Both the position numbers and the translations under genes were made by a program. A DNA stretch of 64,000 bases, from assembly GCF_000003815.2 (NCBI RefSeq), contig NC_049987.1, forward strand, positions 19,428,024-19,492,023, in the 5' to 3' direction. This document shows positions 21,428 through 63,895 of this stretch, in pieces (position 1 is the stretch's first letter; every line of letters starts with the position of its first letter). This DNA is from Branchiostoma floridae (lineage: Eukaryota; Chordata; Leptocardii; Amphioxiformes; Branchiostomatidae). The notes below the pieces were generated by a model, which made no database searches, was not told the DNA's origin, and worked only from the letters and a program-made list of their open reading frames with translations.

Positions 21428-22260
21428 TCAGTTGGTTTGCTGGCCCTCGGCAGTCTGGGGGTTAACACTGATCTCCACTTGTTGCCTGCACACCGGGCAC
21501 GAACCGTTCTGTTTTAACCATCTATCCACGCACTTAGAGTGGAACTCGTGAGCACACGGCATCCTCCGGAGTTTGTTTCCCGTCTTGTACTCTACCATAC
21601 AGATTGTACAGGAGTTTTCGTTCCCCTCGCTGGCTAGGCGCTGCGCGTCCTGTCGCGTGAACTTCCGACTCGGTAGCTGGGCGATCTCGTCTTTGGTCAG
21701 TCCACGCGGTGCCTCATCCTCTTCAACCTCTACATCACCCCACATTTCCGCGTCACGGGGAGAAAACATCCCCATCACTTCTAGAAACCCGTCCCAAGAG
21801 TCACTCGACTCATCATCTGAGAGCTCGTCTTCTAAAAAGTCTTCCCATGAGTCATAGTCCTCATCCCAGGAGTCGCTAAAGTCCGAGGAGTCAGAGTCCG
21901 AGCCGTTCATGGCGTCCTCTTCTTCGAGAAACGACCGCAGAAACAGCTGATACGCCAGCATGTCCAGCTGCTGTTGGAAGGCGGACGCTCCCGAGCCTTC
22001 CCGCGGTCTCCCCCGCCGGCGGCCCGTGAGGCGGCGTCTGGGGCGGTTTACGGACCCGGCTCCTCGGCTGGGCTGGGAGCTTGACCGCCGACTTGCGGAG
22101 GCGGTTGTTCGGCGTGGAGCCCGTGCGGTTGTACGACCGGACTGAGTGGCGGTGCTGACCGTGGCGGAGTTGGGCCGTCTTCTCCGGCCGCGCCCACGAC
22201 GAGTTCCCGCGGTGGCGCTGGTTGTGCTGCTGGTGGATGCTTCCTCTGACGCATCATTAC
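21428..22260 (-). CDS. RLIM: Last exon of RLIM-like gene: basic/Ser-rich region, acidic region, RING-H2
   Basis: This 833-base exon encodes 277 codons including the stop. It opens with NDASEEASTSSTT and an Arg-rich stretch (RRGRGRRRPN, NRPRRRLTGRRG), which could act as a nuclear localisation signal. An Asp/Glu/Ser-rich block and the RING domain follow, and then a short tail ending EGQQTN. The acceptor is TTCTGTTCAG at 22261. Confidence 0.9.
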
Positions 22261-25200
22261 CTGAACAGAACAGCCAACATTCAGTCTTTACTTACTCAGG
22301 AGTTGTATACTGAATTTGCGTAATATCACTAATGAACATTACATCTGTTCACGGCACAATCCAGAAGAGATCTAAAACTTTGATTAAAAACAAATAGCAT
22401 AAGGATTATATAGGAAAATAATGATTAGTGCGCACTCCCTACAAATTGAAAAGGGCCAAAACTACAAGTCACCAGCCAACGAGAAACTGTGTCCAACATG
22501 CCTTAATCATTTTTAATGATAATGACTAATGAGAACGAATTCTACTTCATAATAGACTGTCCAACCTACGATAAAGACCAACAAAAATTGTTAAAATCTA
22601 TTTATTGTACATAAGTCTGATGCAATATTAATTACCATATACCAAGACAGAGATATTCAATTCGATATGTTCTAAAGAAGTGGCATGCATAACATTAACT
22701 GGTTTGTCTATACTGTTATCAAAAATTAGATTTAGATATTAGCAATACAAGAAGCTGAATGTTCATGAAATGTATGTGCAAGTTGCCATCTATTGTACCT
22801 GTTACAATTGTCACGTTCTATCTTATTCAGTCTATATATTACATGTACCTGTATCACTGGTGTTATTGCTGGGTCTAGCTGAAGCTGGTCGGTTGTTCCG
22901 TCTGCGCGCTGCCGCCCCCCTCAGTCCCGTCAGTCTCTGTTGTCGCCCGCTGTCCCGACCGCTACTGTGGCCGCCCTCCCTCGGGGATGACTGTTGGGTA
23001 GTCTGTCTGGGTCTCAACTGCATTCTATTGACTGGAGCTTGCTGGGTAGCTGTTGGACAATGACAAATTACTCAGTAAATGCAGAAATGTTTGCGGTTGT
23101 TTTATGTTCACAGTTTCTGCAGCAACCATTTCACCACAAACTCAAAACCACAGCAATTTTTGTCTTCTCCACAACCCCTTGTCTAACTCTAAGTGATGTA
23201 CCATATGATATACTATACATTGCACAGTACATGTACATTTCATTATAATGTTATAACTAACAAAGCACAAACTGAACACACAACTGTTACAGATCTTTGA
23301 ACATTGAATACAAAAAAGGTGCTTTCTGAAATTGTATAGAAAATAACAATACAAAATAATATAATAACAGTTATCTTCCCCTCAAAACACCATTCAATCT
23401 TAGTAGTCATCTTAAAGTTTGTAATTTTACATTTGCCAATTACCTGCATGCTGATTAGTTGCTGGTTGAGTGGCTATGTGCTGATTGGCTGCTGGTTGAG
23501 CAGGTGTGTGCTGATTGGCTGCTGGATGATTAGGTGCATGCTGATTGGCTGCTGAGTGATTGCCTGGTGATTGATTGGCAGCAGGCAGGTTGGTGGTCCT
23601 GAGTTGCAGCCTTCTGGCTTCTAGATCTTCTGGGGTTGTGTTCCGCCGGTCTCCCAGCATGCCTTGCTGTCTCAGGAGTAGAAAGTCCTCTTCAGGCAAC
23701 CCTCCGATGTACATGAGATATTCCGCCTCCCTGGGGGTAGGGAAACAACAAATGTTCAGATGTAAGCAGTGCTCAGGGACCAACTGGTGGCCTGTATCAC
23801 ACTCATATTCAACCAGGAAGCATCTTTGCGCTGTGGCAAGTACATGGTCAGTTCCACTTGACCACACCAGCCGGAAATTGAAATGACATCTGACTTCCAG
23901 CAAGGAAATACATGAATGTTTTTTTTTTTTTTTTTGTTAAAAAAAAGCACTTCAAAATTTATAACCGGACCTATGCCATGTCGCTGACATGGGGCTGAAA
24001 ATTTCTCAACGAGCTTGAAGGTACAAGCTATCAGACGGACATACTTGCTATATTTTGGCCGTAAATACTGTTACACTGGGGTCAATAATTCATTACCCTG
24101 GAGTAGTCTTACAGTTACACTGATTACGCTCGTTAAAAAACAAGAATAAAGAATGCTTCATGCAGACACAGTACACAGGGTTCTCCCCAGAATTTTTTTA
24201 GAATAGTGGAGGGGTTGGCAGAAATAACCCGAACCAACGCGCTGCACTTTCATGAAAATTGGTTCATTTTGCAATGACAGAAGGTGTCAAATACATGTAT
24301 TACAAGTATAATATGTTATAGTGATTCCTTTGTTGTGAAGCGGCAAAACGACTATTGTTTTGATCATTGCCCATTCACCAGTTTTTGCAGACAATGACGA
24401 CTGGAAAAGTGATGCCACTTGGCACAAAAATCTGTGAATTTTGATTAATTCAGGAAAACTAACCAAGAAAATAGGGAAGAAACACACTAAATTTCAAAAG
24501 AAGTATAGTGGAGCTGGGCTATGAGTATAGTGGAGGGCCTCTGTTATTCCATCCTCTGGGGAGGACTCTGGTACACTGTATCAGGTCTTACCTGCGTAGT
24601 TGTTCCAGCTCCTCCCTCCTATCCGTGTCCAGGGACTGCAGGTGTTCCTCCTGAGTCACCATCCGTCCATGGAGATCCCAATAAAACAAACAAACAAACA
24701 AACCTGCGTAGTTGTTCCAGCTCCTCCCTCCTGTCCGTGTCCAGGGACTGCAGGTGTTCCTCCTGAGTCACCATCCGTCCATGGAGATCCCAATAAAACA
24801 AACAAACAAACAAACAAACCTGCGTAGTTGTTCCAGCTCCTCCCTCCTGTCCGTGTCCAGGGACTGCAGGTGTTCCTCCTGAGTCACCATCCGTCCATGG
24901 AGATCCCAATAAAACAAACAAACAAACAAACAAACCTGCGTAGTTGTTCCAGCTCCTCCCTCCTGTCCGTGTCCAGGGACTGCAGGTGTTCCTCCTGAGT
25001 CACCATCCGTCCGTCAGACAGAGTCACCAGCTCCTGCCGCGAGCGTTCCCGCCACTGTTGGACGAACTCCAGGGGGTTGTCCCGCCCCTGGTGTCTCCTA
25101 CCACGACCTGACATACCGCCGCCAGATGATAGGTGGCGCTGTGGAGACAGAAAACAACAATAGTATCAAAATTGCTATTGAATGCTACAGCAGCAATTGT

Positions 25201-26324
25201 GTGTGTCAAACTAAATAAACTTCTTAAATACAAATAATTCCACATGCATGTTCAGTGCATCCACAACTAATTGCACTTAGGGGGAGGGGGATTGACGTAC
25301 TCAAAATCTAGGGAAGTCTGGTCATACTGGGGTATGTTCCCCCAGAACATAATTTTAATTTTCTAACTTACTGACAGTTGAAAAACACAAGTTTGTTGAC
25401 AAAAAATTGGACAGTGTTTTTTTTTTTCATAAAAGTTGAACTTACTAGTAGAATAGTGGAAAGCATCCAAGGTAGCGCAGCATTAAGCCAAACCTAACCT
25501 CTGCTNNNNNNNNNNNNNNNNNNNNNNNNNNNNNNNNNNNNNNNNNNNNNNNNNNNNNNNNNNNNNNNNNNNNNNNNNNNNNNNNNNNNNNNNNNNNNNN
25601 NNNNNTAATTGGTCCCGCTTATACCATTGGTATATACCATATTACCTCCACCAAGCAAATTTTACCTGCACCACTCTGAATTTAGAAAGTATGGATCATA
25701 CTAAAATTGTTCAGGAGCCATTGCTATTTTTTTTTTCTTTTATACTTTATAGGTGGTAACAGTCAATACAGCTAATAACAATCCATATACAGCTACATTA
25801 AAGGACATATAATAAGTATAAAACCCAGTACATGAACCAGTGCAGGTTAGGTGCAGGTAGACATCAGAAATACCTGCACAGCTCCAATTTTACCTGCACT
25901 AACCTGCATATGCAGGTGGTATTTCGAGCCCTGGTATCACAGTCTTACTCTTAGGCAATTGACAGCTGATCTAAAACAACTCAGAGCCTAATATAACCTC
26001 TGCTTGGAAGCCCCTGCTGCTGAAAGCTTCAATAACACAGGCAAATGCCAGCTATGGGCTATACCACACCTTCAAGATAGGGGTGTTGAGCTATGATTCT
26101 GCATTAAACCTAAAAAATCTGCAATGGTGCAAAAAATTGTGGGACTTCAAAACCCTGACATTCCAAAAAATCTTGAGCTATAGCTGCTGACACGCAAATC
26201 CAGACAAAAACAATACTCCTAATTTGGCGATCACTGATCTCCTTCACAGAGTAAATATAGAGAGAACTGAAGAAATTAAAGACAAAAAAATAAAATTACA
26301 ACATACCCGATTTTCCTCTGGCAT
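21428..26324 (-). CDS. RLIM: RING-H2 E3 ubiquitin ligase, RLIM (RNF12)/RNF6 family, complete
   Basis: Exons 26324-26307, 25138-24936, 23730-23444, 23049-22849 and 22260-21428 join in phases 0, 2, 1 and 1 to about 513 residues. The N-terminal conserved module reads REAEYLMYIGGLPEEDFLLLRQQG...LGDRRNTTPEDLEARRLQL, matching the RLIM/RNF6 pattern (EEDYRLMRD-LLGTPGE-T-EEL-RRL). The middle is Gln/Asn- and Arg/Ser-rich and disordered, followed by an acidic run (about 120 residues before the RING). The C-terminal RING-H2 has CTIC, MPCAHEFHSKC and CPVC, a C3H2C3 pattern, preceded by GLTKDEIAQLPSRKF as in the family. The likely role is nuclear ubiquitin ligase for transcription cofactors, from family knowledge. 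The exon 2 donor is weak and sits in a tandem array (see separate entry). Confidence 0.9.
22849..23049 (-). CDS. RLIM: RLIM-like exon 4 (disordered Arg/Gln-rich)
   Basis: The exon has acceptor CCAACAG and donor ACAG|GTACATG, with both borders in phase 1. It encodes a low-complexity stretch (LRPRQTTQQSS, RDSGRQQRLTGLRGAAARR). A decayed MITE family A copy lies about 20 bases upstream of the acceptor. Confidence 0.8.
23072..23158. mobile_element. MITE family A, partial copy 8
   Basis: CAGTAAATGCAGAAATGTTTGCGG...CACCACAAACTCAAAACCACAGC matches one half of the family. It ends abruptly and lies just before RLIM-like exon 4. Confidence 0.6.
23444..23730 (-). CDS. RLIM: RLIM-like exon 3 (conserved N-terminal module plus 10-residue repeats)
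   Basis: The first half codes for the conserved EAEYLMYIGG...RRLQLR module. The second half consists of 30-base tandem units giving AANQHAPNHP, AANQHTPAQP, AANQHIATQP and a final ATNQHAG that runs into the donor GCAG|GTAATT. The last repeat unit thus contains the splice site. Confidence 0.88.
24177..24567 (-). repeat. Interspersed repeat R1, minus copy, in RLIM-like intron 2
   Basis: This is the inverted partner of 18657-19033. It sits between exon 3 and the duplicated exon 2 array. Confidence 0.75.
24592..24935 (-). repeat. Tandem array duplicating the RLIM-like exon 2 end and its donor
   Basis: Three extra units begin at 24592, 24704 and 24820, with periods of 112, 116 and 116 bases relative to the exonic copy at 24936. 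Each contains the last ~78 bases of exon 2 (GGATGGTGACTCAGG... to CTACGCAG) plus an (AAAC)n/GTTTGTTTG intron segment. The exonic copy and two of the extra units have a poor GTTTGT donor. Only the most distal unit has a good one, GTAAGA at 24591. Confidence 0.9.
24936..25138 (-). CDS. RLIM: RLIM-like exon 2
   Basis: The acceptor is CTGTCTCCACAG at 25139. The exon is in frame from exon 1 and gives RHLSSGGGMSGRGRRHQG...NPLEFVQQWRERSRQEL...EELEQLRR. The final AG pairs in phase 2 with the G of exon 3 to restore an Arg codon. If exon 1 were not used, the ATG at 25114 would be the start. Confidence 0.85.
25506..25605. other. Assembly gap (100 N)
   Basis: Exactly 100 N suggests a gap of unknown size, inside RLIM-like intron 1. 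Confidence 0.95.
25617..25935. repeat. Interspersed repeat R2 with GCAGGTAAAATT motifs
   Basis: The block carries repeated TACCTGCAC/GTGCAGGTA motifs, ends in GGTGGTATTTCGAGCCC and reappears inverted in two parts at 33528-33745 and 35300-35440. It probably extends into the adjacent gap. Confidence 0.65.
26307..26324 (-). CDS. RLIM: Candidate first coding exon of RLIM-like gene (six codons)
   Basis: ATG CCA GAG GAA AAT CGG (MPEENR) is followed by a good donor GTATGT, in phase 0 with exon 2. Support is the consensus donor, the open frame across the junction and the promoter-like site upstream. An 18-codon-base coding exon can also arise by chance. Confidence 0.6.
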
Positions 26325-26400
26325 TACGGCTATGTATGCATTTATCAGGCGTTGGCTCCGACAATGTCATCAATGTTCCAGATAATACAGTTAGTTCAGA

Positions 26401-26410
26401 ATGACGTCAT
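26401..26410. promoter_or_regulatory. Perfect cAMP-response-type palindrome upstream of RLIM-like start
   Basis: ATGACGTCAT (core TGACGTCA) lies 77 bases upstream of the proposed start codon, where CREB/ATF sites are common in vertebrate housekeeping promoters. Use in this gene is inferred. Confidence 0.5.
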
Positions 26411-27206
26411 CTCCAGAAATCTTGCACGTAATACCAACCAACCATAAACCACCGTTGCACGGCATGACAACACACAACACAACTAACACAGCTTTAAAAT
26501 CAATACCTAATCAAATGCTCTATTGTACTTCTATTGTAGGTCTATTTATAGGGAGAGACAGATCAATTATATGTCAGTCCATGACGAAATGTTGGACTCA
26601 GACATTTGAATAATGCAATGAACTACTAGATGGTTCTATGGTTGCTAATCGCTGGGAAAATAGCACATGGAATCAATACAGATTTTGGAAAAATTATCCC
26701 AATATAACTTTTTTATAGTCCACCTATGCTGTTGTTAAACAAAGTGAATTCAGAAATGTATCAAATGAATAGAAATTATATAGGTCCTCATATGCATATT
26801 CAACACATTCTGATATACATTTAACACATGAAAACCTGATAGGAAAGTTGGTAGAGTGACCAAGCTGTTTAATTTTTTGGTGTAAATACTGAATCATTAG
26901 TGAACTAGAGTTCCTCGAACACATATCTTCGCCAAATAAACAATTTCTATGGAAGATAGTTCTTTTTGAATGATTAATGTGTATAAGTCCATATGTTATC
27001 TAGTCACATCATGTAGTGGTTGGTTGGATTATGAACATTGTGAGTAGATTAGTCTATTCTGTCGGTGTACATAATGCAGCAAATGTTTTGGCGATGTGAA
27101 TGAATGTCTTTGCATAATCAGAACAACTTGTACAGGTATGAGGTTACTGTTCTATTTTGTGTTGTCATAATTACTTTCGGAGAGCTGGTTATGTTTTGGG
27201 TAGCGT

Positions 27207-27243
27207 TTGTATGTATGTATGTATGTATGTATGTATGTATGTA
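27207..27243 (+). repeat. Microsatellite (GTAT)n
   Basis: About nine uninterrupted GTAT units. Confidence 0.9.
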
Positions 27244-28549
27244 GAAACCAGCAAATTGAAGACCGGCTGAATGGATTGAAGTGATATTTGGTATGTGGGT
27301 AGGTCTTGGAAACCTGGAAACCACAGGAAGTCACGCCGATAATTGCATTCGTCACTCACCAAACCCCGGCCACTGTAACAGTTGTTCCTTCCAATTTACG
27401 GAACTTTTTAACTCACCAAGGGTCATCTAAGGGCCATATGTAAGGATTGCTACGACCCCCGCCTTGGTGAACGTTTGTTTCAATCTCATGAAAATAGAAA
27501 GTAAAGTTTTGCAGTCGCGAGTTAAGTCAGAGGTATTTTACAGAGTCCAAGGTTATGATTTCTGCGACTGTCCGATGACAACCGCCTGTCACCTTTGGCG
27601 ATTTGTATTTCTCGCAATGATGTCAGTTCTTTCTAGCCGACCTTTCCCTTACAACATGACATCTCTGTTAAGAGTTGAGGAATGCGTGGATAATTGACGG
27701 TGACCCTTTTGACCTAAGTGCTGTTCTTCAACATGTTGGGTTTGTCTTGTCCCAGCACTTGGTCACTTGTTGTTTTAACCTAGTTCACAGATGTAAGTAC
27801 TATGTGTTACAAGCCGTCATTGTTCAATTATGTTATATTACTGACTTTACATAGTACTTATTCGTTTGTTTAGACCCATGTAGTGTTACTGGCACATGGA
27901 ACACCAAGTTTCCTTGCAGTCCATCATAAGAAAATACACCTGAAGTGTCTCGTAGATATTAGCTCTACATCTTTATATCAAGTGATATTCGTCAAGTTCC
28001 CTCTACTACATTTTTACCGTTCCCATGATATAGTGTTGCTTTTATTGTTGATCTGTATATAGATATAAGCAACACTTGTATATAGATATGTTATATTTCA
28101 ACTGCTATGAATCCTTTGCTGTGTGCCGTCGTATTGACATCAATTCAGCAAGCTATTTAATTGCTTAATTTTATAGATACGTGTTGGACACGGTCAGGCT
28201 TTGTATTTTGCTAACATGAACCATGACCATTTATAGGCATTTTTCAGCCAGTAGTCTCTACCAGACTCCATCCTGGCAGAATAGTACACGGATGACCTAG
28301 TAACATCCCTGGTCAATCAGAATTTCATGCTTCCAAGACAACGTCTGTTTATGAGGGAGCCCCTGCTTCCACTGGCTCCTTTGACCTACTTCTTCTCTAT
28401 TTTTAGACATCTATGGGTCGATTCAAGTCCTTTCAGGTGACTCTGTCACAAGTATTTTTCAACCGTTATAGAAGTTTCCCTAAGTAATTATATTAAATAC
28501 AGAGTGATTTATATAATTTGCATCTCATTATGTTGATAATCATCCAAAG

Positions 28550-29225
28550 TACCTACCTACCAAAAACAAAAAATATCCATCAATCCCCTCAGGAGTTATC
28601 CATCTAAAAAGTTACGAAATATAACACCCACTGCAATTCCAAACAAGCTGCTAGGGGGCCCAAAATTAGACCATTGACTCCTAGTACCAACAGCTATCCA
28701 CCAGTAAAAAATCACGAACCTGGCACTTCTAGAAAATTTAGGCGAAAACTTTGATGCTCACTTGCAGTACCAAAACAATTTGCCAGGAGGCCCATTATCG
28801 AACTTGACCTTCCTTTCTGTGTCCCCTACCTATCAACCAAATATCATTAACATCCATCAAGAACATCTCGAGTTATCTTGCTTACAGACAAACGCACTTA
28901 CATACAAAGCCAGCTACAGCACCATAGGTAAAAGGTAGCTAAACCATTCTCGCACATGGCAATCCTTTCCACAGCCGCTACAGACCTGCCAAATATCGTG
29001 GAAATCGCCCAGCTACATTTTGACTTATGCCTCCCGAAAAAACACCCAAAAAAATACCAAGCTCGCTAATGTACCATAGGAAAACGCCAGGTAACCCATT
29101 TTCGAACTAGGCATGCCTTTAAACAACCGCTACACACCTGCAAAAAATAAAAAAGTTCCATCCACAATTTCTCGAGTTATATCCTGTTGACCTACATACA
29201 GACCCAAGTCGGCAAAAACATAAGC
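28550..29225 (-). repeat. Dispersed repeat R3 (GCTGCTAGGGGGCCCAA family)
   Basis: The stretch consists of several diverged subunits, each with a 'rest of AATATCCATCAATC...AGTTATCC, then CAATTCCAAACAAGCTGCTAGG' layout and an end TTCTTGGCGAAG. A related copy is at 34360-34745, with GCAGTTCCAAAATAAGCCGCTAGG and the same TTCTTGGCGAAGG end. Class unknown. Confidence 0.6.
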
Positions 29226-29624
29226 TTCTTGGCGAAGCTAATGATCTTTGTTTATACATGTATTGAAAATTGCAGAGGTGATTTGAAAACAGTTGTTGTA
29301 CTGAATGTACATGCCTTTGGTTCTGACGTAAAGTTGTTATTAATAATTCATAGACTACCATCGAGGACTATAGAAATTATTAGAATAAACATCATGGCAA
29401 AGCAGTTGTCAGCACATATCACATGAACTAGTTACTATTATATACTAATAACCGTTATACATGTAATTTAACGTGTTTTATTTTTATGTCAATCCCTACC
29501 TTTTCTGATTATAAGTAGTAAACAGTTGACAATTTTGCAGACTACTTTTCTGCACTTTGCACAATTTGTATTGCAAGGACATGGTCCTCATTAAGAAACT
29601 CTGAAATCTCCAGTTCTGTCTTCA

Positions 29625-29905
29625 ACGCACAAACCTTATGTGAGCAGGAATCACTATGTGATACAAACGAACCTTATGTGATTTGCATGAACCTTATGCA
29701 AAACTGGCCAACCACCTCCGGGTCATCAAGTGACATTACGTCATTCGCATAAGGTTCGTGCAAATCGCATGTTCGTGTGTGTGACAGACGGTTCGTAGGT
29801 TTTCGCATAGTGGTTCGTGTGATTTTCATAAGGTTCGTGTGTTTTCACATAGTGATTTGTGCGTATCACATAATGTTTGAATGAATCTCATGGGGTTCGT
29901 GCAAA
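29625..29905. repeat. Inverted and tandem CATAAGGTTCGTG element
   Basis: The left part has CGAACCTTATGTGATTTGCATGAACCTTATG. After a non-repeated centre, CATAAGGTTCGTG and variants (CATAGTGGTTCGTG, CATGGGGTTCGTG) occur about six times in the opposite sense. Confidence 0.65.
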
Positions 29906-30949: not shown

Positions 30950-30959
30950 AAGATGGCGG
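30950..30959 (+). promoter_or_regulatory. YY1-type start-site motif, candidate CEP126 promoter
   Basis: AAGATGGCGG is the YY1 consensus often found just downstream of transcription starts. Its ATG opens only a short frame (MADRSKDR, then stop), so the region is read as promoter/5' UTR. A donor-like GACG|GTAAAC follows at about 31090. Confidence 0.4.
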
Positions 30960-36595: not shown

Positions 36596-36602
36596 TCCAC
36601 AG

Positions 36603-42700: not shown

Positions 42701-45700
42701 AGGTTTTCTTTACTTGGTTTTACTCTCAATATTTAGATGGTCAAGGTACATGCTGTCAGCTGGAAGGTAAAGAAAATGTTTTAAGTTTTGTGTGATCGTT
42801 ATTTGTTCCAGGATCCTGCTGTGACAGGAAGCCGGCAGACAGCTCAGATGTCCCAGCTGACCCTGGACGGGGGGAGGTTAGCAGGCTCGGAGGTGGTCCC
42901 CAGGCTCAGAACCATGCCCAGGGTGGGGGGGTTCTCATCTGCAGCACCCACAGGTAAGGGGAGTGGGGGGTATGGTGGGGTGGACTTGTGGACAACCATT
43001 GTTGATTGGACTTAGGACCTACATTATTTTATGTTGCGCACCCATAATGTCTTCTGTGCTCCTAAATTTTTAGTTTGAAAGAAGCTGAGTGCACTAGCCT
43101 GGGTATCATCTGGATATATAGGTGTTTGCTCTGACGATTATTATACACTACATGTATTATACAGTCGCTTCTTTGCTATTCTAACTTGGAACTCAACTTC
43201 ATGTCCAAATCTTTGACGAGGGCGCTAATTTGTCCCATCAGGGTAGTAGTTTACTCCTATGTTTGCTTCTACTACCCAAGAAACTGAAATGGTTATTAAT
43301 AACTGATTGCTGTATTTCATCAGGTGTTGGAACACCTGTTCGAATGAGCGTTCTAGAACCCTTGATTCCCTCATAACTGATGTCATCACCCAAAGATTTT
43401 GATATATGTAGTTCCCCGTGCAGATGCATGCCATTGGGTAGCAGAAGCAAACATAGGAGCAAACTACTTCCTGAATGGTAGCCAGGCTAGCGCACCTTTT
43501 CCAAAAAATTGATTTCGAGCTTTGACGTTTATGGTGAGTGAAGAGGTACTTTTCAGTTGTACTGAATGCCATGATGTTCATCAGCAGGAGGAAGGAGAAG
43601 AACAGCCAGTGAGAACAACAGCGCCTCCTTGCGTCGTAATGCCCTACTGCAGCAGAGGAACCAGCAAAGAGCCAACACCTTACAGAAGACCCCCACCCCC
43701 TCACAGCAGCAAGTCCGGTTTACGGAAATCTCACAGGTATGTAGAGCAGACAGGGATGTCCCTGTGGCTCAACTGATATCGGCCTCACAGAAACAGTAAC
43801 AGTTATTACAGTCCACTATTCTCCCTCCAGACTGCTATAGGTCCTACTGACAGTAACTACAGTGTACTGTTCTGTTCCCAGACTACTAAAGGGCCCATCC
43901 CTAGTGCCCAGGAGCCAGGGAACAGGACAGCAGGTCCTACTGACAGTAACTACAGTGTACTGTTCTGTTCCCAGACTACTACAGGTCCTATACCCAGTGC
44001 CCAGGGAACAGGACAGCACAGCAGGTCCTACTGACAGTAACTATACAGTGTACTGTTCTGCCTCTGGACTACTACAGGCCCCATTCCCAGTGCCCCGGGT
44101 ATCAAGTCCTACTGACAGTAACTTCAGTGTACAGACGTCTGTTCCCAGACTACTACAGGCTCCATCCCCAGTCCCAGAGCCAGGGAACAGGACAGCAGGT
44201 CGTACTGACAGTAAACTACAGTGTGCTGTTCTCCCTCTAGACTACTACAGGTCCTACTGACAGTAACTACAGTGTACTGTTCTGTTCCAAGACTACTACA
44301 GGTCCCATCCCCAGTGGCCAGGAGCCAGGGAACATGACATCAGGTCCTATTGGCAGTAACTAAATTGTACTGTTCTGTTCCCAGACTACTACAGGTCCCA
44401 TGCCCAGGAGCTAGGGAACAGGACAGCCATTCCTACTGATAATAACTACAGTTACTGTATATTGTTCTGTTTCTACTGACTACTACAGCCAGTACAGGTC
44501 CTACTGACAGTAACTTACAGAGTACTGTTCTGTTCCCAGACTACTACAGGTCCCATCCCCAGTGCCCAGGAGCCAGGGAACAGGACAGCGGGCCCTACTG
44601 ACAGTGAGGTGACCGAGAGTCTGGCCGCTTTCCTGGAGGCTGAGTACATGTCTGACCAGCCCATCTCTGAAGCTGAGATCGCTGCTGCACTAGACGCCAT
44701 GCAAAACAGACAGACTGGACAGAAGGGTGGGTATACAGCTGCTGTTGCTGGAATCAAGCGGCATTTTTATAGCAAGTAAAATTGTAAGCCTTAAGAAAAA
44801 AGCTTGCCATGCAACCGTTAGATAACTGTGAGGATGAAATGGTGGTAGAAGTTACACTTACATTATGTAGGGCCACGAAATATGCATTGAGTTTCGGGAA
44901 ATGTCCACATATAATCTCGCAGCACATTTTGCAATATTCTGCAGGACATTTGGAAATTTTTTGTAGTGCGTTCTGCGATATCCCATAGGGTGTTCTGCAA
45001 GAGTTAGGAGGTTTCTTCTGAGTTTTGCAAATTTCAGTTCTGCAGCAAAAATCAAACATGTACAATGATTCACTTCTGGGATTTATGCAGATACATGTAA
45101 CTTTTCATTCACTCTAAAACACTAAGTCTTACAGGATGTGAACTAACCTTACATAATTTATGTGGTTTGTGTTTACAGCACCAAGTGCACTGTCCATGGA
45201 GGAACGAAGACTTCTGCAGTCTTTGGACAGACTCAACCAGAGGTTAAAAGGTAAGTTTCTCTTTTGAGAGGTTACGTCACTGTACCGTAACACTTAAAGC
45301 CATACACAGGGAATAGTTGACAAAAAAAAGCACAGGATGGGAGATTATTGTTGCATGAACAATGCAATATCAATACAAAGCAACATACATGTATTAGATT
45401 AGAGCAATGATGGCATGATAATTATTCTAACTGTATTCACTGATTTCTACCATGATGATAGTTATACATGCAGGAAGAGTTTGAAAACAGATGATTATAA
45501 TAAAAATGTCCTTGTTTTATACAAATTTAATGTTCAAACTTGAACGTGACTGTATATTCTAAATCACATTATTTCATTCTAGTTACAGAAACTGTCACTC
45601 AGAATGCTGCAACCAACATGACACAAAAACCCCCACTCCATGTAAGATATTCTTCCTTTTTCATTGTTACATGACTTGTACAACAATGATATTATACCTT

Positions 45701-47182: not shown

Positions 47183-47224
47183 ACAAGGTATTATGGTTAC
47201 CAGGCTTAGTTTGCATGTATCTAA

Positions 47225-50763: not shown

Positions 50764-50778
50764 TTATGGCCTTAAATA

Positions 50779-54200: not shown

Positions 54201-57134
54201 CTGAAGAAGAGGGGGGAAAGGGGGGAAATATAAGTTCCACTGTTGTAATTGCAATAAACATGTACAATGTACATTGTTAGAAAAGCTCTGGAAAAAACCT
54301 GATGAACCCCATAAAAACTTGTTGACCCTAAACTTATTTTTGGCTCCAACCAATACTGTATATCAAACTCTATCTGATAATCTTCTTTTCCCTAGCAATC
54401 TAATAGTAGTATTTTGATGAGATGGTGCACATTTTTTATTTGTATACTTTTGTTCATTAAAGTCTTCATTAAAAAATGTTACATTCTACTCGTTATATGC
54501 TTGCAATTCCATTTAGTTTCAGTTAAAAGTTTTTAACGAAAAGTAGATACTGTACATGCATTTGAAAATTCATATTTGATAGAAAATACTAAACCTCTCA
54601 TACACAAATTTGTAACAAAATTTTTGTTCACGTGTTGTTGAGAGAGCTGTCAAATACTGCCAAATGATAAAGCTTAGGACAACTTGATCAGTGTACAATC
54701 AATTATGTGTGCCATTGCCACATACATGCACACATTGTGTCTAGGAAGCCCATTGCCACATACATGAGTCTAGGAAGCTCATTGCAAGATACATTGTACA
54801 TCTAACTTGTGTCTAGATTGAAGTCTACATGATGGCACTATAGTGACACATACCTGTGTCTAGGAAGCCCATTGCCACCCCAGTAAAGGACACCAGTATA
54901 CCCATGACAGACAGTCTCTTGGCCCATGGTATCACAGCAAAGCCTGAATCAAGAAAAAAAATTATTTATACACACATATATATCAGCAATGACACAAAAA
55001 TAAAACAATCACTGTTCCTGCTTACAAGCAATCATCACATACTAGTATAATACTGAATAATCATAATACTTACAGTAAGTTACTAATTTAGTAACTTACT
55101 GTAAGTATTATGATTATTCAATGAACAAAAAAGTTTGTACAAAATATACACCCTAGTCAGTAATCTCACTGGTTTTATCATTGAATCTTACAAATCATGT
55201 TTCTAGCTAAGACAGTGTGTTTCTTTCTTCACAAATAACTTCAAGATATTCAATATACATGTACAAAGGACATTGCATCACAAAGGACATTAGTTGTTCC
55301 TATTGTGTTGTCTGACCATAGGAAACTATGCTAACATGATTTGCATTTGAGTAACTTTGCATATGATCCTAACGAGTTAGTGGTTAAACCAGTTTTTCTA
55401 GTTAGCTGTACTTGCATGGAATTGTCCTGTTAGTTCATACTAGTGACGCTGAAGAAAAGTAATGGATGTCACTCGAAATGTCCGGAAGTAAATATCCGTT
55501 TTTTTATCCAGTTGTAGAGATTGAATTGTATTTGAACATGTACAAAGTACTTTGAATTCTTACCAATGGCATTAAGAAGGAGACTAAGTCCCAGCAGCAG
55601 ATGTTGGTCGAACATGTCGAACAGGAACCCTCCGACGGCAGAACCGACCAGGTATCCTACGGAGCGCGCCGTGAAGATGTAGGAAATGTGAGCGATGTCG
55701 GCATGAACGTTGGCCGCCAAGTCCAGCAGGGTGGGTCCGACCATGGCTATACACACCCCCTGAAAATGGAAGGACATTCACTTAATTTTCATCCAGCTTT
55801 ATCCAATGAACTTAACTTGTCTCAACTACTCACACTCTCTTACTAGCTTACATGTATCATCTGTCGTGTTCTTACACAATGTTTCAAACCAGAATCTCAG
55901 CAAGCTGCTAGATTGTAAGCTAACTCAATTAGCTTCTAATCCATAATGCAGAATACCAAAAATAGTCCGTTATCATAATTTAAAAAAGAATTTATTATCA
56001 ATAGTATTATATTGTAATGGAAAGATATTTGTACCAAGAGATGTCCCTGTGGTGCAAGAGGTAATGCAACCCAGCATCTTGAAAATTGCGGATCAAATTT
56101 GGTCGATCAGTGGGCCAGAGTTCAATCCTTGGGTAAGTGCTAGTCTAGCTCGGATTGAAATTGTTATTTCATATGGTAAATTAAAGGCTCGGACCTATAT
56201 AATATATGACTACATCATGTATGAGGGAGCGTCAAGCATCAAACCTCTGCTTATAGAACCCAACACACTTATTGAGATAGCACCCTCACACTCAGGGTTG
56301 ACAATCGCGGCAAAGCCTAACAATATCACCCCTGACAACTCAGCCACAGAATTTGGTTATTAGGGGCGTGGCTTCTAACCAACTGTCAGCCCATCGGAGA
56401 GATGGCTTTTTGTTGTCGAAAGCTTGGAAAGGCACCATATAAGGCGACTCATTAATATTCAAGAGCAAGATAACAGTACCGGCATAACGTTTCACAGTAC
56501 TTTCAGCGTCCAGACGTTTTTACTTAGGTACCAAATTTAACTGTTGTCGGTTCTGTGGGTCCTGGTATAGGTAACCACGGCATCACCGTTTAACGACCTA
56601 GCATATGAAAAAAAGAACAATATCGTCACGCAAAGATGAACAGATCTTTGTGCACGCCGCGCCGTACCATGCGTACGCTGTTTGTTCGAAACCTTCAATC
56701 CGGTCGCTGATTGGCCTGCGACAAATCAGGCAAGCTCATTAATATTCATAAGCAAGGCGCCCCTAATACTAGTATTCTGTGGCTGAGTTGTCAGGGGTGA
56801 TATCGTTAGGCTTTGCCGCGATTGTCAACCCTGAGTGTGAGGGTGTGAGATAGAAGAGTAGGGTTGTACTACTACTAGCTTATGAAAAAGCATCATGCTC
56901 AGTTTCAGGTTTGACCACTTTACCTACCAAGCCCAAGAAGGCTGCACACAAAGCGTAGGTCCGCAGGTAGACTCCACCGCAGCACCGCTCCCTGTCCTGA
57001 CTCCTCTCGACCTTGACATTGTTGTTTGTGTGACCTTCGGCGCCGCCGTCCCCCCGGGAGTACACAGTCTGGTCTTCGTCAGTCAGGTCAGCCTGAGGCA
57101 GGCGCTGGTACTTCTGCTTGGAACTCGGCATCAT
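52276..57134 (-). CDS. MFSD4B: MFSD4B (NaGLT1)-type major facilitator transporter, complete
   Basis: Exons 57134-56928, 55759-55564, 54943-54854 and 54200-52276 join in phases 0, 1 and 1 to 805 residues, against about 500 for usual family members. The first membrane segments carry GVCIAMVGPTLLDL, ARSVGYLVGSAVGG, GFLDTGGNVLCLNLWG and MQALHFSFGIGAFIAPLLA. The second half carries GLNTLFWGTFSLVRG, IFPSAISWAERY and GKAAAVFVVGASFGEM. These match the NaGLT1/MFSD4B pattern of sodium-linked glucose (or related solute) transport at the plasma membrane; substrate is inferred. The extra length is one loop of about 320 residues between predicted helices 5 and 6. The donor of exon 1 is taken as TTG|GTAGGT because only this keeps phase 0 and the LGLGVCIAM wording. 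Confidence 0.88.
54720..54853 (-). repeat. Degenerate copies of the MFSD4B exon 3 end in the next intron
   Basis: Exon 3 ends GTGGCAATGGGCTTCCTAGA-CACAG|GTATGTG. In the intron just downstream (minus reading) the block recurs as TTGCAATGAGCTTCCTAGAC followed by TCATGTATGTG, and again as GTGGCAATGGGCTTCCTAGA followed by CACAATGTGTG. The donor AG|GT is broken in both copies. Confidence 0.75.
56281..56845. mobile_element. hAT-like foldback element with 8-bp target duplication
   Basis: Inverted arms of about 90-100 bases begin CACCCTCACACTCAGGG and are nearly identical. Both sides carry the perfect direct repeat TGAGATAG (56273-56280, 56846-56853). The eight-base duplication points to the hAT superfamily. 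No transposase frame is present. The element lies in intron 1 of the MFSD4B-like gene. Confidence 0.85.
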
Positions 57135-57239
57135 GTAATGTCATGTTCTAATAGAAAAATAAAACAAAATTAGCTATCTACATTCCAAATATCCTGAAGA
57201 TCCATCAACCCATTTCCAAGTTATTCCCCTCGAAAGGGA

Positions 57240-57345
57240 TGATGCAACTACGCAGGTGTGGAAAATTCCTGACATGCCTGCGGAATTTTGAGAATTCTTG
57301 TCATACGGACACACACTATGCTATTAGGCTAGACTCTGAGGTTTC
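57240..57345 (+). repeat. Fragment shared with the nested insertion at 35190-35300
   Basis: GATGCAACTACGCAGGTGTGG...TTCCTGACATGCCTG...CACACACTATGCTATTAGGCT parallels GATGCAACTACGCACGCGCGG...CACACTATACTATTAAGCT. Confidence 0.55.
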
Positions 57346-58231
57346 GCAAAAAAATCATGGCTCTTAGCATGGGCAATAGGCCTCGGAATTGTGTTTTTTG
57401 TTGAGTAACAGGAACCCCGCCGCGCGCTGTCTGCCACGGTAGTCCGCCGTGTACCGCCAATCCGGAAATGCCTTCTCAGATGCTCCCGTCAAAGATTACT
57501 ATCTTCTTAGTGCGAGTATTTCCCGTCATCCTTTGCGCCGCCTTTCCCCTAACTTTAAATGTTGGATGGGTAAGCAACCGATCTCCCTGATGTGCGTTAC
57601 CACTTCCGGTGTTTTCGATCATCTGTGTTGTGGTGTGGGATCGTACGGCGGGCCCGTTAAGGCGCCTTGTCGGTTTTCGTGGTACTATTTGAGAAGTTTG
57701 AGGGTTTCAACACGCTGACAAAAGCTACGCTGCACTGCAGATACGTTTTGACCGTGTTTTTTCCACTGCTTTTGTCTGATTTTCGTGATCGGTAACGTGG
57801 CAAACCCGAAAGTAAGAACTGAGATAGGAATACCAACTTCCTTAGGAATACAGATCTCGTGAAACAGATGGCATTTTAGCGATTATTTAAGTATGGACCG
57901 TTCTACAAGAATAATGCATCAATGATTATAACGATTACATGTGGTTAGTGCCAGCGTTTTGGTAAATATACTAGCTACCGATGCGTTTTTTTACGACGAC
58001 GTGGTGTGGCCGCCGCCGTACTGCTGGTAACGCAGTGACCCGGAAATCGGCTAAAATTCAATGGCGTTTATTTTAATTTGAAATGACTAATATGTGCTCT
58101 TTGTACGTTAAATGGCCTCCAAATAACTCGACGAACATAATTCACTTGAAAGTTTTGACTTAGATATTAGAATTTTGCAGAAAACGGCGATAGTAGAAAA
58201 GGCCTTTCCCACCTAGCTCGCTTCGCTCGCT

Positions 58232-58600
58232 CTAAATCGGCTACGCCGATTGGTCGGCTTAGCCGACCTTCGGGTGGAAAAACTCCTGCGCCGATTGGTC
58301 GGCTTCGCCGACTTCCCCGACCTTCGGGTAATCCCCAACCCCGGCAATGCTCAGCGATACGGTGTACGGGCGAATGAAAGACAATTCCTTGGCCTACTGC
58401 TCGCTTCGCTCGCCGCGACGCTTCGCCGCGCTCTAAATCGGCTACGCCGATTGGTCGACTTAGCCGACCTTCGGGTGGAAAAACTCCTGCGCCGATTGGT
58501 CGGCTTCGCCGACTTCCCCGACCTTCGGGTAATCCCCAATCCCGGCAATGCTCAGCGATACGGTGTACGGGCGAATGAAAGACAATTCCTTGGCCTACTG
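58232..58600 (+). repeat. 201-base tandem duplication rich in CGATTGGTCGGC
   Basis: TCTAAATCGGCTACGCCGATTGGTCG... is repeated with a period of 201 bases and few differences. Each unit contains short hairpin words (GCCGATTGGTCGGC, GCCGACCTTCGGG). The open frames across it exist only because the duplication repeats a stop-free stretch. Confidence 0.8.
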
Positions 58601-58689
58601 CCTATGCTCTTAGTGGCAAATGTGCAGATGTTGGCACTCTGGTACACCAAATCCGTAGGTGTTTTTTGGCACCCTTTTTGACAGATTAG

Positions 58690-58805
58690 CTGTGTGGGTG
58701 TCACTCCACCGTCATGGGGGGTTAATTGTGTTAAGTGCCCTTCCCAAGTATGGAACTCGGGACTTACTGATTTTGACTCAAACGCTCTAGCCGTTGCACC
58801 AGACC
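58690..58805 (-). mobile_element. SINE head fragment, minus orientation
   Basis: In minus reading it has GGGGTCTGGTGCAACGGCTAGAG (A-box-like) and AGTCCCGAGTTCCATAC (B-box-like). It resembles the tRNA-derived heads elsewhere in the window. Confidence 0.45.
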
Positions 58806-59204
58806 CCAAACTCTAATATAAGGTACACAGCAAGAACTCAGTCAATGTCAAAGTGACTTATAATAACATATTTTCTTGGTTGGAAAACATAATTTTTTTT
58901 CTGTTGGGGGCTTGTCAGTATATACTACTAGTACGTGTCTGCCTGTCCATGTGTTTGTGTGTCTGTTTCCAATATGTCTGTCTGTGTTTCTGTCTGTATG
59001 TTTCTGAACATGTGTCTGAGTGAATTTGTGCACCTAAAATTAGAGCTAATTCTTGACTGTGGGTGCACTAGTGTACTTGGTGCACCTACATTATATGATA
59101 TTAGATTTACTAATAGAGGGGTTGTACATACATAAAAGGTGTGCTATTGTAATAACAAAAATAACTGGTAAACGTGCACGTGCACCTTATTTTTTTTTCT
59201 GAGA

Positions 59205-59810
59205 ACGGTCTGCCTAAACACCACAAATGACCACAAACGACTCAGAAACACCACAAACGACCACAATTAACTCTAATATGAAGTGTATATGGGTCAAAGA
59301 CCTTGTGTGGCGCTCTGGAGACAAATGTTTACACATTTATGAATTTAAAAAATGCAGCAAGTCCTACGTATTCACCAGTTATTTCGAGTTAGTCAGCCGG
59401 TTTCAAGATCGGTCTCGATGGCTGAGCGTGCTGTTCATGAATGTGTGCTTGCATTTGAGGCAGAAAAACTTAGTATACAAGTTTTATAAGTTGAAAATGA
59501 TAGAGTTGTGTCATGCTATAATCTATGAACCAACAGCGTCCATAGTTTTATCGTCCTGTCGTCTATGGAACCGTGGAAGGTATAGAGGCCTTCCCCATGC
59601 AGACTCCTAGCACAGGCGATCCAACATGGTGGCAAAGAATCGCTTCTATCTTGTAACCGGCGGACTAACTCGAAAAAACTGGTGAATACGTAGGACTTGC
59701 TGCATTTTTTTAATTCACAAATGTGTAAACAATGTCTCCAGAGCACCACACAAGGTCTTTGACCCATATACACTGCATATTAGAGTCGTTTAGGCACACA
59801 CTTCTGAGAA
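59205..59810. mobile_element. Long foldback element
   Basis: Arms at about 59270-59415 and 59653-59795 are inverted copies at roughly 90% identity by eye (AGTGTATATGGGTCAAAGAC..., TGCAGCAAGTCCTACGTATT). They surround about 235 bases. The left arm has an extra run of ACCACAAACGAC repeats. Confidence 0.7.
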
Positions 59811-60034
59811 CCTTAATCTTTAGGACAGGTGGACCAGTGCATGTATTCCCAAAAATGAATTTTAACTTAAGCTACATTGTATGCAACTTTTATCATAGCA
59901 TACGTTAGTGCTTATAAGACTAAGAGGCCACAATACATACACTGTACCATCAACTTCAAAAATAAGGCTCCTAGCTACGTTAAAGCTTGAAAGAGAATTT
60001 AACACGTAATACTATGTTTTGTTTATGACTTCAC

Positions 60035-60060
60035 CCAAGGACGTTATATAACGTCCTTGG
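60035..60060. repeat. Perfect 26-bp palindrome
   Basis: The half-site CCAAGGACGTTAT is followed directly by its exact complement, with TATA at the centre. TCTAGATCTAGA follows at once. It could be a terminal remnant of a foldback element or a protein-binding site. Confidence 0.7.
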
Positions 60061-61199
60061 TCTAGATCTAGATATCAGACATATAAAACAGAGGGAAATT
60101 GGCAAAAAAATTGTGTGAGAAACCAAATCATACCTGGTAACAAAGCTATCTCACGAACGGGTTAAATATCTATACGTCTATGAACAAACCAAACAGTAAT
60201 AGTTTAAATGTGCCATTTCTGAACTTTGTCCTCCACTTAAGTCTACAGTCTGTCCCTCCTTGACAAATATTCGTGAACGGTCGCCCATTCCGTCAGGTCC
60301 GATCGCTGAATAAAGGAATTACAAGAGCTACTCAAACACTGGACCAAAATTTATACTTGAAACTTCCGAGTCCCGACGCAACAATTGTGATAAAGTTGAA
60401 AGACCAGATACAGATCCGCACATGACGCCCCCCTCCCCCTTCAACGTTCATGTTGGCCTAAACAGATTGTCAGCAGTTATTACTTACCAGAAGTACGATG
60501 CCAGCAGGAAAACGTCCTATGTGTGGCCTATACGTGTGTCCAGTAGTTTGACAAATATACGTGTAGCACTGTGTGACCTGTGCAACACAAAAGCACGTTT
60601 TGTACTTGTAGCACCAGGAAGTGCCGAACTCTCCACCGAGGTATTGTGTGCGCGTCGCCGTTATGGGGAGACGATACCATTAGAATTTCCCCCCAGTAAT
60701 ACATGCGTTCCAATGGGAGAGTTGAGGAAACAAATATGCAATTATCTCAAGAATAAAAAGTTCAAGCCATACAAACTTATCTTCAAATGATAGCCTACTG
60801 TGTCCAGTCTCAGCAAATTCCTTGGCAAGAATTTCTATACGGCTAATCTTATGATACACCCCCCTAATTAGAGCTCTTGGATTGGCCCATTTGGCTGAAA
60901 ACAGCATTCTGGCGACGATACCACTATTTCAGGGGGGTGCGAGCGCGGAAACCCCCTCGATGGAGAAAGGTAATTTTTTACAACTAATTCTACCAGTGTA
61001 GGGTCTTTCCTACTGCAGCCACTCCCAAAATGCCCAGATTTCACATAATACCATATGATATTAAATACCTCTTTCCCGCGCTAGCACACTCTGGGTCATA
61101 GGTCAAATGATTAGTACCCCGAATGTCCTAGTTCGTAAACCAATGGAGGCTTTAGTAAAAATAGACCAATGAACAGCTAGAATAAAGATATTTTGTCCA

Positions 61200-61296
61200 A
61201 TCGTAAGCCAGTAAATCGGAGCGTGTTGGATTACATTACCAAGATGGCGGCGACGGGTGGCGTTCTTGGATACCGGACACAACATTGATTTTTTAG
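61200..61296 (+). promoter_or_regulatory. Candidate promoter and non-coding first exon of CCDC83-like gene
   Basis: A YY1-type AAGATGGCGGC lies at 61241. Its ATG opens 14 codons and then a stop, just before a donor-like TTTTAG|GTAAAA at 61296. An acceptor TTTTTTCCTCAG ends near 61798, 47 bases before the coding start, so a spliced 5' UTR fits. Confidence 0.5.
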
Positions 61297-61844
61297 GTAA
61301 AATTTGGCCATTTTCGTCTTATATGTAGGTGACATAAACCAAGGAAATGGTAGATAACTTTGTAAGGGTAAGCCTGTTTGTAACTGTCTGGGAAAGGAGG
61401 CCCAATTGATCGTGTTGTTTGGACAGACAGGATCAAAACAGAGTTGTGCAACCGGGGCCGGGTTGCTGACTACCATTAAGATTATATATAAGAATCATAG
61501 TTTTGAACAACGACGTTACGTCTTCACGCAGACTGAATTCTCCATACAAACTGAAATAGAGCTAAACCCACGAATGTCAGTGTTTTGTGTAGCGCATTTG
61601 TGTACGATCATTGCGTTTTATAATTTCTTTTTATCACAACAGGTATATGCGACTATGGGCACACTAGACTCTTGTGTGTTAAAGATTTCCATATCTTAAT
61701 TTTAAGACATCAAAATTATGACAAGAGTTTGATATAGATTTATGATATATATAATAACGTAAGTTAGCATATTACAAAGACTGCCATTTTTTCCTCAGTA
61801 AACGCCCAACGCTCGCCTGGTTCCTGAGAAACTGAAGACCAGAG

Positions 61845-63278
61845 ATGGGGAAGAAAAAGAAGGGAGGAGGAAAGAAGGGGAAGAAAGGGAAGAAGAAGTC
61901 TGGAAAGGGAGGAGGGGAGGAGTCCATGTCCCTTCGAGAGGCCATCCTGGCTTTCCAGTAAGGATCTCATGTCTTCACGTTGTTGCCATTAATGAATGCA
62001 TATGAAGTACATTTTACTATGGATTGTCCTTTGTATGATAGCGATAGGAGCATTTGATTTGACTATGTGTTAAGTAAATATCCCCACTTTAGACACTTGA
62101 ACAGTAAAGAGAAATTTGTATTCCTGACACTTTTGATAAACCAACTCTAACCAACCATACAGCTAGCTACATTTACAATTACCAAGAAGCGAGAGGAAGT
62201 CGAATGTCCTAGAATAGATTAGACGCACATCAGATCTGCATATATAGATGTGTATGATTGTTTCCATTGTTACATATATGTGATTCTTACCGTGTGACCT
62301 GTACTTAGCCCAGTGGGGCAAAAATGTGCAATAAAGGTCTTCATTCATTATTATGTATATATAATCTGTATCTGTACTAGTATCTATATAGCCGGTATAA
62401 GATAACCGCCCTTTGGCATATAACACACCAGCTTCCAGGCACGCGGCATGGCAGCAGCTGGTTATCTCAAACTGAGAGACTTGTCACACCTAGCCTTTGC
62501 ACATCTGACTGCAAATGTTGTTGAGAGTCGCATATTTGTTTGTCTGTGACAGTGTGTGTGTTTGTGTGACACTAAGTAATATTTTTGTCACACATAAGAT
62601 TGTTGTTAAAATCACAATTTAATGATTAGTGATAACTATGATTTCTTACCACGGATATAAATATTTGCTTTCCTATCACAGGATTGAAGTGAAAAACAAG
62701 GCAGTGGAAGAGTTTGTTGCGGAAATCAACGGTCTGGAGGACAAGAACAGAAGGCACAAAGAAAGGGTAAGTGCCAAAAGTTTATTACTTAAATCTAGAA
62801 ATAACATACTTTTTGCTTTTTGATAATCATTTCTTCCTCCTAGATCCTTAAGTTGGAATCACCAAGCTGCTGCTAGTGTAATCTTATTTAATAAAAGTAA
62901 AACTTACTTGAGTCGTTGAGACAAGTTTTATCATATCAATTTGAAGAATTGTAACAAACAAGAGTCTTATGTATTCCTGCTATTTCATTATAGATGTATT
63001 ACAGGGGAATTTTGGAAAAGGAAAAGCTGTTCATGCTGGATAGCACTCGTAAAATCAAAGAAACAAACGTGACTCTGTAATGCTAACATACAGAACTCTT
63101 CTTTCCCAGAATAACCGACTTAAAGATGAGCAGGCCCTGCACATCCGGACGCTCCTTAAGCAGGCTAAGGAGCGAGACAAGGAGCTTGAGCAGGAGACGG
63201 TGGTGGGGCGGGAGAAGGTGGACTCCACCATGAAGGACAAGTGGAAGGCTATTAGGAACGAGGACAGATCTGTGGAGG
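61845..63278 (+). CDS. CCDC83: CCDC83-like coiled-coil protein, 5' part (runs off right edge)
   Basis: Exons 61845-61957, 62682-62766 and 63110-63278 join in phases 2 and 0 and give 122 residues. A Lys/Gly-rich start (MGKKKKGGGKKGKKGKKK) leads into SLREAILAFQIEVKNKAVEE, then LEDKNRRHKERNNRLKDEQ, HIRTLLKQAKERDKELEQE and VDSTMKDKWKAIRNE. This parallels vertebrate CCDC83 (SEALLDYQ, AVEQF, KKNQKYHERNSRLKEEQ, HIRHLLKEL, EEAMKEKWK), so the assignment is good although only the N-terminus is present. The function is poorly known; a role in sperm or cilia is plausible but unproven. The last exon ends in phase 1 at a donor that is copied downstream. Confidence 0.85.
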
Positions 63279-63590
63279 GTAAGGATAACACACGTGTGTT
63301 ACTTAGTGAAGAATTACATGTATAACAGATCTGTGGAGGGTAAGGATAACACACGTGTTGTTACTTAGTGAAGAATTACATGTATAACAGATCTGTGGAG
63401 GGTAGCAATGTGTAGTTACTTACACAGAGTATTATAACAAATCAAAAAGGCACCAAATTCAACTAAAAATTCTTGAGTAGTAACAAAAGATACATTTCAA
63501 AGGGTGTTACATAAAAATGACTATTAGGAACGAGGATAGATCTGTCGAGGGTAAGGATAACATACGTGTTGTTACTAATAGTAAAGTATT
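63264..63590 (+). repeat. Tandem copies of the CCDC83 exon 3 end and donor
   Basis: ACAGATCTGTGGAGG|GTAAGGATAAC recurs with a period of about 62 bases at 63325 (donor intact) and about 63387 (donor changed to GTAGCA). A longer copy at about 63520 also includes the exon words CTATTAGGAACGAGGA and an intact GTAAGG. Confidence 0.88.
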
Positions 63591-63895
63591 ACACATATAT
63601 CAAATAAGTAAGGCACTGAATTTATCTTGAAGAAAAACTCAACATTCTTGTGAGTAGTACCAAAAATGCATGTATAACAAATGAGTAAGGCACAGAATTT
63701 ATCTTGAAGAAAAACTCAACATTCTTGTGAGTTAAGTACCAAAAATGCATGTATAACAAATGAGTAAGGCACTGAATTTATCTTGAAGAAAAACTCAACA
63801 TTCTTGTGAGTAGTACCAAACATGTATAACAAATGAGTAAGGCACTGAATTTATCTTGAAGAAAAACTCAACATTCTTGTAAGTAGTAACATGCC
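63590..63895 (+). repeat. Second minisatellite, units of about 75-80 bases
   Basis: There are four units of AACAAATGAGTAAGGCACTG, AATTTATCTTGAAGAAAAAC, TCAACATTCTTGTGAGTAG. A diverged fifth piece is at 63430-63490. It follows the exon-end array in the same intron. Confidence 0.85.

Follow-up and report, generated by a model that had tools for sequence, protein, structure and literature searches.

Why do several neighbouring genes of Branchiostoma floridae carry tandem arrays that copy a splice junction, and does the junction itself take part in making them? The question arises from an initial annotation of a 64,000-nucleotide stretch of the genome (C9:19428024-19492023, hereafter the window), which had described arrays copying an exon end together with its splice site in an RLIM-like, a CEP126-like and a CCDC83-like gene. 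Using Tandem Repeats Finder (TRF), self-BLAST and direct reading of the sequence, with exons predicted de novo, we identified four junction-copying arrays in the window: an RLIM-like donor array, a CEP126-like acceptor array, a CCDC83-like donor array and a decayed donor array in an MFS gene. The three arrays first described were thus confirmed by TRF and reading, and the tandem repetition exceeds chance. Splice signals are retained in many, not all, copies, as judged from the AG of the CEP126-like array (8/10) and from donor scores in the CCDC83-like and RLIM-like arrays. By their unit content, i.e., tandem units containing an exon-intron boundary, these arrays are mirage minisatellites, an amphioxus class which the annotation had mentioned and which is indeed published (PMC3087553, PMC3902484). 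Its gene names hold where Pfam supports the predicted proteins (RING 4e-15, K1377 2e-9, MFS_1 1e-10), while the CCDC83-like piece has no Pfam match and carries a name that is the annotation's own. Our reading, to which we give a probability of about 0.55, is that mirage minisatellites grow out of a seed duplication placed non-randomly at the edge of a splice signal, which would be a product of repair and would be tolerated through splicing.

This reading is carried by the position of the breakpoints in donor-side arrays. Exact donor words repeated 29-89 bp apart were searched throughout the genome (513,431,437 bases, 431 contigs) with the four words CAGGTAAGT, AAGGTGAGT, CAGGTGAGT and AAGGTAAGT, and revealed many further donor arrays beyond the window. 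The counted set comprises 34 donor arrays, 33 from the word searches plus the CCDC83-like one, the MFSD4B and RLIM-like arrays being left outside. The intron part of each unit was measured by anchored alignment, with first donors chosen by eye, and compared with a null that places the junction uniformly from +6 on, because the purging of broken donors would impose a minimum of about 6 nt. The pattern had been noted from L029-L032 and the window arrays ahead of the AAGGTGAGT results; the 11-nt cut was chosen after seeing the AAGGTGAGT arrays.

Among the CAGGTAAGT matches listed, four exon-end donor arrays were found, and in three of them the unit is an exon end plus 4-11 nt of intron. With AAGGTGAGT, the intron part measures 11 nt or less in 13/19 arrays when 3.1 are expected, a count unmatched in 200,000 simulations (automated measurement), and the mean relative junction position, which depends on no cut, is equally extreme (0.19 vs 0.5 expected). 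Measured by hand, the CCDC83 array and those of CAGGTAAGT and AAGGTGAGT, 24 in all with the seed set included, had a median exon part of 30 nt and a median intron part of 9 nt; intron parts of 11 nt or less were found in 17 (expectation 4.3 for a floor at +6 and 6.7 for one at +1), and in 16 by the automated measurement. Over all 34 arrays the count is 20 vs 5.7 expected. Of the 24 arrays measured by hand, 11 have an exon with a Pfam match at an E of 0.01 or less (among them Folate_carrier 8e-14, BACK 4e-19, VWC 2e-8, PH 1e-6 and I-set 2e-7), and in every one of the 11 the unit holds more exon than intron. Several joins are marked by bases shared between donor and exon (AGT, GT, TGAGC). In-frame selection on unit length was considered and rejected, 8/24 periods being multiples of three, as by chance.

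The sampling behind these counts was as follows, transposon-like rows being excluded by eye from the matched text. For CAGGTAAGT, about 100 of 432 rows were covered (C1 to C5:4.4 Mb), giving 7 loci judged not transposon-like; 4 were used, and L033 (no array), L034 (acceptor side) and L035 (no exon) were dropped. All 98 rows of AAGGTGAGT fell into 27 loci, 2 of them transposon-like and left out; 19 of the 25 read were used, the others being L045 (a paralogue of L044), L047 (an array copy away from its exon), L054 and L055 (second word without an array), and L056 and L057 (no exon seen). For CAGGTGAGT (1926 rows), those on C1 to 29.24 Mb were covered and yielded 10 loci besides the L031 place, of which 7 were used and L067 and L070 (no exon) and L068 (beside an opposite-strand acceptor) dropped. 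For AAGGTAAGT, all 63 rows made up roughly 24 loci, from which 9 multi-row loci were read and 3 used; the loci left out had a single row, were paralogues of L075 (two) or, in one sulfotransferase case, were related to L049, and L073, L074, L075, L078, L080 and L081 had no supported exon. As to the measurements, the hand set includes corrections by eye at L040 and L041, none being needed in the gap-aware automated run, and the value of L077 was taken by eye. In L044 the unit coincides with the entire exon, which makes this array ambiguous; the alignments of L063 and L065 cross indels, L065 scores only 3.5, and L069 scores 7.0.

Some of the sampled arrays have relatives elsewhere in the genome. 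L044 and L045 (C6:20.28 and 20.34 Mb) are paralogous arrays whose unit is a whole predicted 45-nt exon beginning GTGAGT. On C9, a sulfotransferase-like exon-end array is present in more than one place (L049 at 23.07 Mb, C9:2415014-2416492 and C9:14938910) and may therefore predate the gene duplications, and the short-chain dehydrogenase exon-end array of L048 recurs about 3.5 kb off, without an exon, at L047 (C9:8.15-8.16 Mb).

Several observations weigh against our reading. Six of the 11 Pfam exon matches lie below Pfam's own cut-off, and where Pfam support is missing (13/24 arrays), just 9 units hold more exon than intron (sign P 0.27, Wilcoxon P 0.41), although 8 of these 13 have an intron part of 11 nt or less, with 2.4 expected. 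The later words point in the same direction without reaching significance: 3/7 for CAGGTGAGT among the matches listed (1.4 expected, P 0.13), 1/3 for AAGGTAAGT (0.3 expected), 4/10 for both together (1.7 expected, P 0.065). Long intron parts occur at L051 (70 nt), L042 (60), L076 (47) and CCDC83 (46), and in the automated run at L072 (35), L069 (33) and L046 (32), the last having a hand value of 1. Several arrays finish with an exon copy that is incomplete or decayed, an ending not expected from one clean duplication, and the junctions are those of exons predicted de novo from the sequence. Arrays in general show no excess at junctions, as detailed below. Finally, the route through heterology between homologues is a proposal whose predictions concern haplotype data. 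We regard the breakpoint rule as likely and, since the later words are weaker than AAGGTGAGT, as not independently confirmed.

The non-uniform breakpoints of donor arrays imply that something about the junction matters, and to this extent the junction-linked mechanism suggested by the initial annotation stands. Its other pillar, an excess capture of junctions by arrays, found no support. With an exon finder written de novo (5/8 of the block proteins put to Pfam matched a family), predicted junctions were rotated against local direct-repeat clusters in the window and in an unselected 200-kb block, one of nine planned beforehand (C1:10.0-10.2 Mb, 181 kb of known bases). In the window, a junction lies within 3/12 clusters (null mean 1.85, P 0.28); a fourth, the RLIM-like array, was added by hand, the finder having split its exon and placed the donor 2 bp inside the array edge instead of the 7 required. 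In the block, 0/25 clusters do so (null mean 3.0). Taken together, 4/37 local repeat clusters span a junction when about 4.9 are expected, a comparison of low power made on imperfect exons; enrichment was rejected on this test, and a preference of arrays for junctions is not shown. Raw donor-word pair counts against the reversed word (432 v 13, 98 v 29, 1926 v 3 and 63 v 15 rows) were likewise discarded as proof of enrichment, because arrays of many copies and a dispersed family resembling a transposon swell these numbers, which are pair counts and not rates. That family, found at L036 (G000:C1:20224501-20227000) and many other places, has tandem repeats of about 51 bp, each with a perfect donor word; at places separated by about 1-1.5 kb they run in opposite orientation. 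A 3.5-kb satellite at G000:C1:10175917-10179450 is made of 178-bp units containing TAGGGTTAGGG.

One array of the window carries a foreign sequence in its unit. The RLIM-like exon 2 donor-side array (24590..25012, minus strand) has a 116-bp unit in 3.7 copies with 98% match, made up of 78 bp of exon end and 38 bp of a retroelement tail (34 bp in the distal copy), its copies starting at 24592, 24704, 24820 and 24936. The tail (24898..24935, plus strand, with more copies at 24782-24819 and 24670-24703) reads ATGGAGATCCCAATAAA(ACAA)n. It has at least 40 short matches elsewhere in the genome, and at 7/7 other loci read (the best-scoring 7 of about 40 matches) the same end runs into unrelated DNA; hence we take it to be the 3' end of a 5'-truncated retrotransposon lacking long terminal repeats (non-LTR). 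It meets the exon exactly at CAG|GT, and the 78-bp exon end stands on either side of it as a direct duplication. Since a tail of 34-38 bp sits between copies of the exon end, the simplest history looks to be an insertion at CAG|GT with a 78-bp target duplication, expanded later to four exon copies. Such an array resembles the target site duplications of non-LTR elements in that an element end is flanked by a direct duplication of the target, and differs in that 78 bp is long for one and was later amplified to four exon copies. Usual non-LTR target duplications are shorter, so the length found here falls outside the usual range. No empty allele was seen; the array has a single full-length match in the assembly, and no second haplotype was seen.

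The splice sites of this array are unequal. Copy 1 reads ...CTACGCAG|GTTTG and the distal copy CAG|GTAAGA, so that a strong distal donor (GTAAGA, 24586..24591, minus strand, score 6.9) stands against three proximal GTTTGT donors with a score of 1.6. When the array was collapsed in script, the predicted exon joined the next exon in frame; read by eye, use of the distal GTAAGA donor leads to an in-frame stop. A 30-bp in-frame repeat in RLIM-like exon 3 (23445..23561, minus strand; TRF and exon prediction) had been put forward as a fifth case. It does adjoin its donor, as claimed; it is a coding repeat that copies no splice site, hence a different thing, and was rejected as a junction array.

How would such arrays begin? 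We propose as seed a short tandem duplication across an exon-intron border. Provided that splicing uses the site closest to the body of the exon, every additional copy would be intronic and harmless, as everything beyond that site is then intron; this would account for the survival of the duplication, not for its breakpoint. The duplicated pair would then expand and homogenise like an ordinary minisatellite. On the donor side the seed would often end 0-11 nt past the border, leaving a unit of exon end and little beyond the donor, as if it were a repair product with one end fixed at the outer edge of the splice signal. In the form that we favour, synthesis would run on a divergent homologue, lose homology where the conserved signal ends and re-anneal upstream in the exon. 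Amphioxus heterozygosity is given as 3.2-4.2% (PMC12862219), and a lancelet genome has a single-nucleotide polymorphism rate of 4.39% and a small-indel rate of 0.98% (PMC4284660). In the RLIM-like gene, the seed would instead have been the insertion, at CAG|GT, of a truncated retrotransposon tail together with a 78-bp target duplication, one concrete way of seeding such an array. More tentatively, the duplication of exon ends in this genome might be a germline mutational process of its own, in which one breakpoint is fixed at the outer border of the splice signal (donors about +0 to +11; the one acceptor measured, about -24); it could stem from repair synthesis that loses homology, at the point where conservation ends, between highly divergent haplotypes.

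The plainest rival is that ordinary minisatellites fall over junctions by chance, are as harmless there as intronic ones and owe nothing to the junction. The rotation test speaks for it (4/37 clusters against about 4.9, none of 25 in the unselected block), as does the abundance of tandem arrays in the window and the 200-kb block alike, and the CAGGTGAGT and AAGGTAAGT arrays alone do not reject it. It predicts, however, a uniform intron part, whereas 20/34 arrays have 11 nt or less in place of the 5.7 expected, and we hold it to be somewhat doubtful. Selection could also shape the breakpoints if duplications that break the donor are purged and +1 to +6 must survive. Units with fewer than 6 intronic nt do keep their donor through matching exon bases (for example AGT at L049, L052 and L060, and GT at L029), and the search words themselves demand an intact donor. 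Purging nevertheless yields a lower limit of about 6 nt and no reason for the scarcity of units with 12-60 nt. The +6 floor is explicable by selection or by the search words; the shortage of longer intron parts calls for a process that halts near the signal, and selection as the shaping force strikes us as very unlikely.

Fill-in at staggered breaks would be the main alternative to repair on a homologous template. The junction would suffer a staggered break or paired nicks, possibly from R-loops or from a polymerase paused at the 5' splice site, and these would be filled in and joined; in mammalian cells, small tandem duplications are reported to arise at breaks with complementary 3' overhangs (PMC8355091). 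This route would fit the RLIM-like retroelement case, where two nicks separated by about 78 bp would be required, one of them at CAG|GT. The arrays with long intron parts are exceptions to it, and it seems unlikely to us. An assembly artefact is the least credible explanation. The globin paper did find one mirage misassembled in an old draft (PMC3087553), and PGBD5 copy numbers differ between two versions (PMC3902484), but re-sequencing upheld the original PGBD5 sequence (PMC3902484), and copies within the arrays differ by substitutions or lengths.

The remaining arrays of the window differ in age and in side. The CEP126-like acceptor-side array (43807..44605, plus strand; TRF, self-BLAST and reading) has a unit of about 93 bp, in which an intron part of about 24 nt, pyrimidine tract plus AG, precedes up to 66 nt of exon; eight of its ten acceptor copies keep the AG at their end. 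The predicted exon after the last acceptor copy (44540..44726, plus strand) lies within the Pfam K1377 (CEP126) match (2.2e-9). This unit agrees with an exon plus a minimal splice signal, an agreement which in one acceptor array is no test. Another acceptor-side array, L034 (C3:31.01 Mb), departs from this description, its unit containing scarcely any exon: it is intron-only, runs up to the acceptor of a trypsin-like exon and copies the pyrimidine tract and AG.

The CCDC83-like donor-side array (63264..63404, plus strand; TRF) repeats a 62-bp unit 2.3 times at the exon 63110-63278, with the donor AGG|GTAAGG. An older copy of this exon end and donor (63521..63605, plus strand, donor at 63551) is 85.9% identical to 63249-63330 by self-BLAST, and is followed on its 3' side by a 79-bp array with no junction inside (63596..63891, plus strand; TRF). 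The region 63249-63891 thus presents a nested history at one donor, an older exon-end duplication with 62- and 79-bp units expanded beside its two copies. At the MFS exon 54854-54943, where degraded remnants of junction copies had been reported in an MFSD4B-like gene, self-BLAST and reading did find decayed donor copies (54730..54878, minus strand; the predicted protein matches Pfam MFS_1). They derive from GGCAATGGGCTTCCTAGACACAG|GTATGTG and, read by eye, have lost the -1 G in all three copies. Together with the weak GTTTGT of the three proximal RLIM-like donors, this leaves no evidence for selection for decoy sites, another idea of the initial annotation.

Mirages are described in amphioxus globins, where Gb6 has one on the acceptor side with 6 and 3 units on two haplotypes, Gb9 has one at the 3' boundary of exon 2 and Adh3 is cited as a further case; Adh3 data and globin reverse-transcription PCR suggest regular splicing despite the mirages (PMC3087553). 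According to the same paper, either exon boundary can be duplicated, and the mechanism of formation was called unclear in 2010 (PMC3087553). The acceptor side of the CEP126-like array, which the initial annotation had thought worth testing, is therefore not new, Gb6 being its precedent. The window arrays share with Adh3, Gb6, Gb9 and troponin C, also named as a mirage gene (PMC3902484), units of tens to about 160 bp with a boundary and with AG or GT in many, not all, copies; they differ in that one carries a retroelement tail in its unit and that they are known from sequence alone. The repeats of lancelet PGBD5 (60 and 108 bp) are likewise imperfect and lie over exons 3 and 4, at both of which the first repeat 'immediately abuts' the 5' splice site (PMC3902484), a position shared by many of the donor arrays considered here; what that paper describes in one gene is here a pattern over 34 arrays. 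No breakpoint rule for such arrays was found in the open-licence papers searched, and both the breakpoint bias of donor arrays and the retroelement tail in a mirage unit go beyond what was found in print.

New introns have been suggested to arise by way of mirages, which gives these arrays a wider interest. Rogers-type intron gain by duplication of an AG/GT proto-splice site (named in PMC3087553) similarly involves a duplication carrying AG|GT, with the difference that an existing splice site is duplicated here and a new intron is not shown. L076 (C7:7.724 Mb) may be one, as its unit reads as coding and seems to continue the upstream exon after GTAAGT, a possible intron gain. If the breakpoint rule holds with real annotation, the question of mechanism would become a measurable signature, to be followed in trios, phased haplotypes and other very heterozygous animals. 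And if the more tentative reading of a germline process is true, splice-site arrays would follow from extreme heterozygosity as a by-product and would continually supply raw material for new introns.

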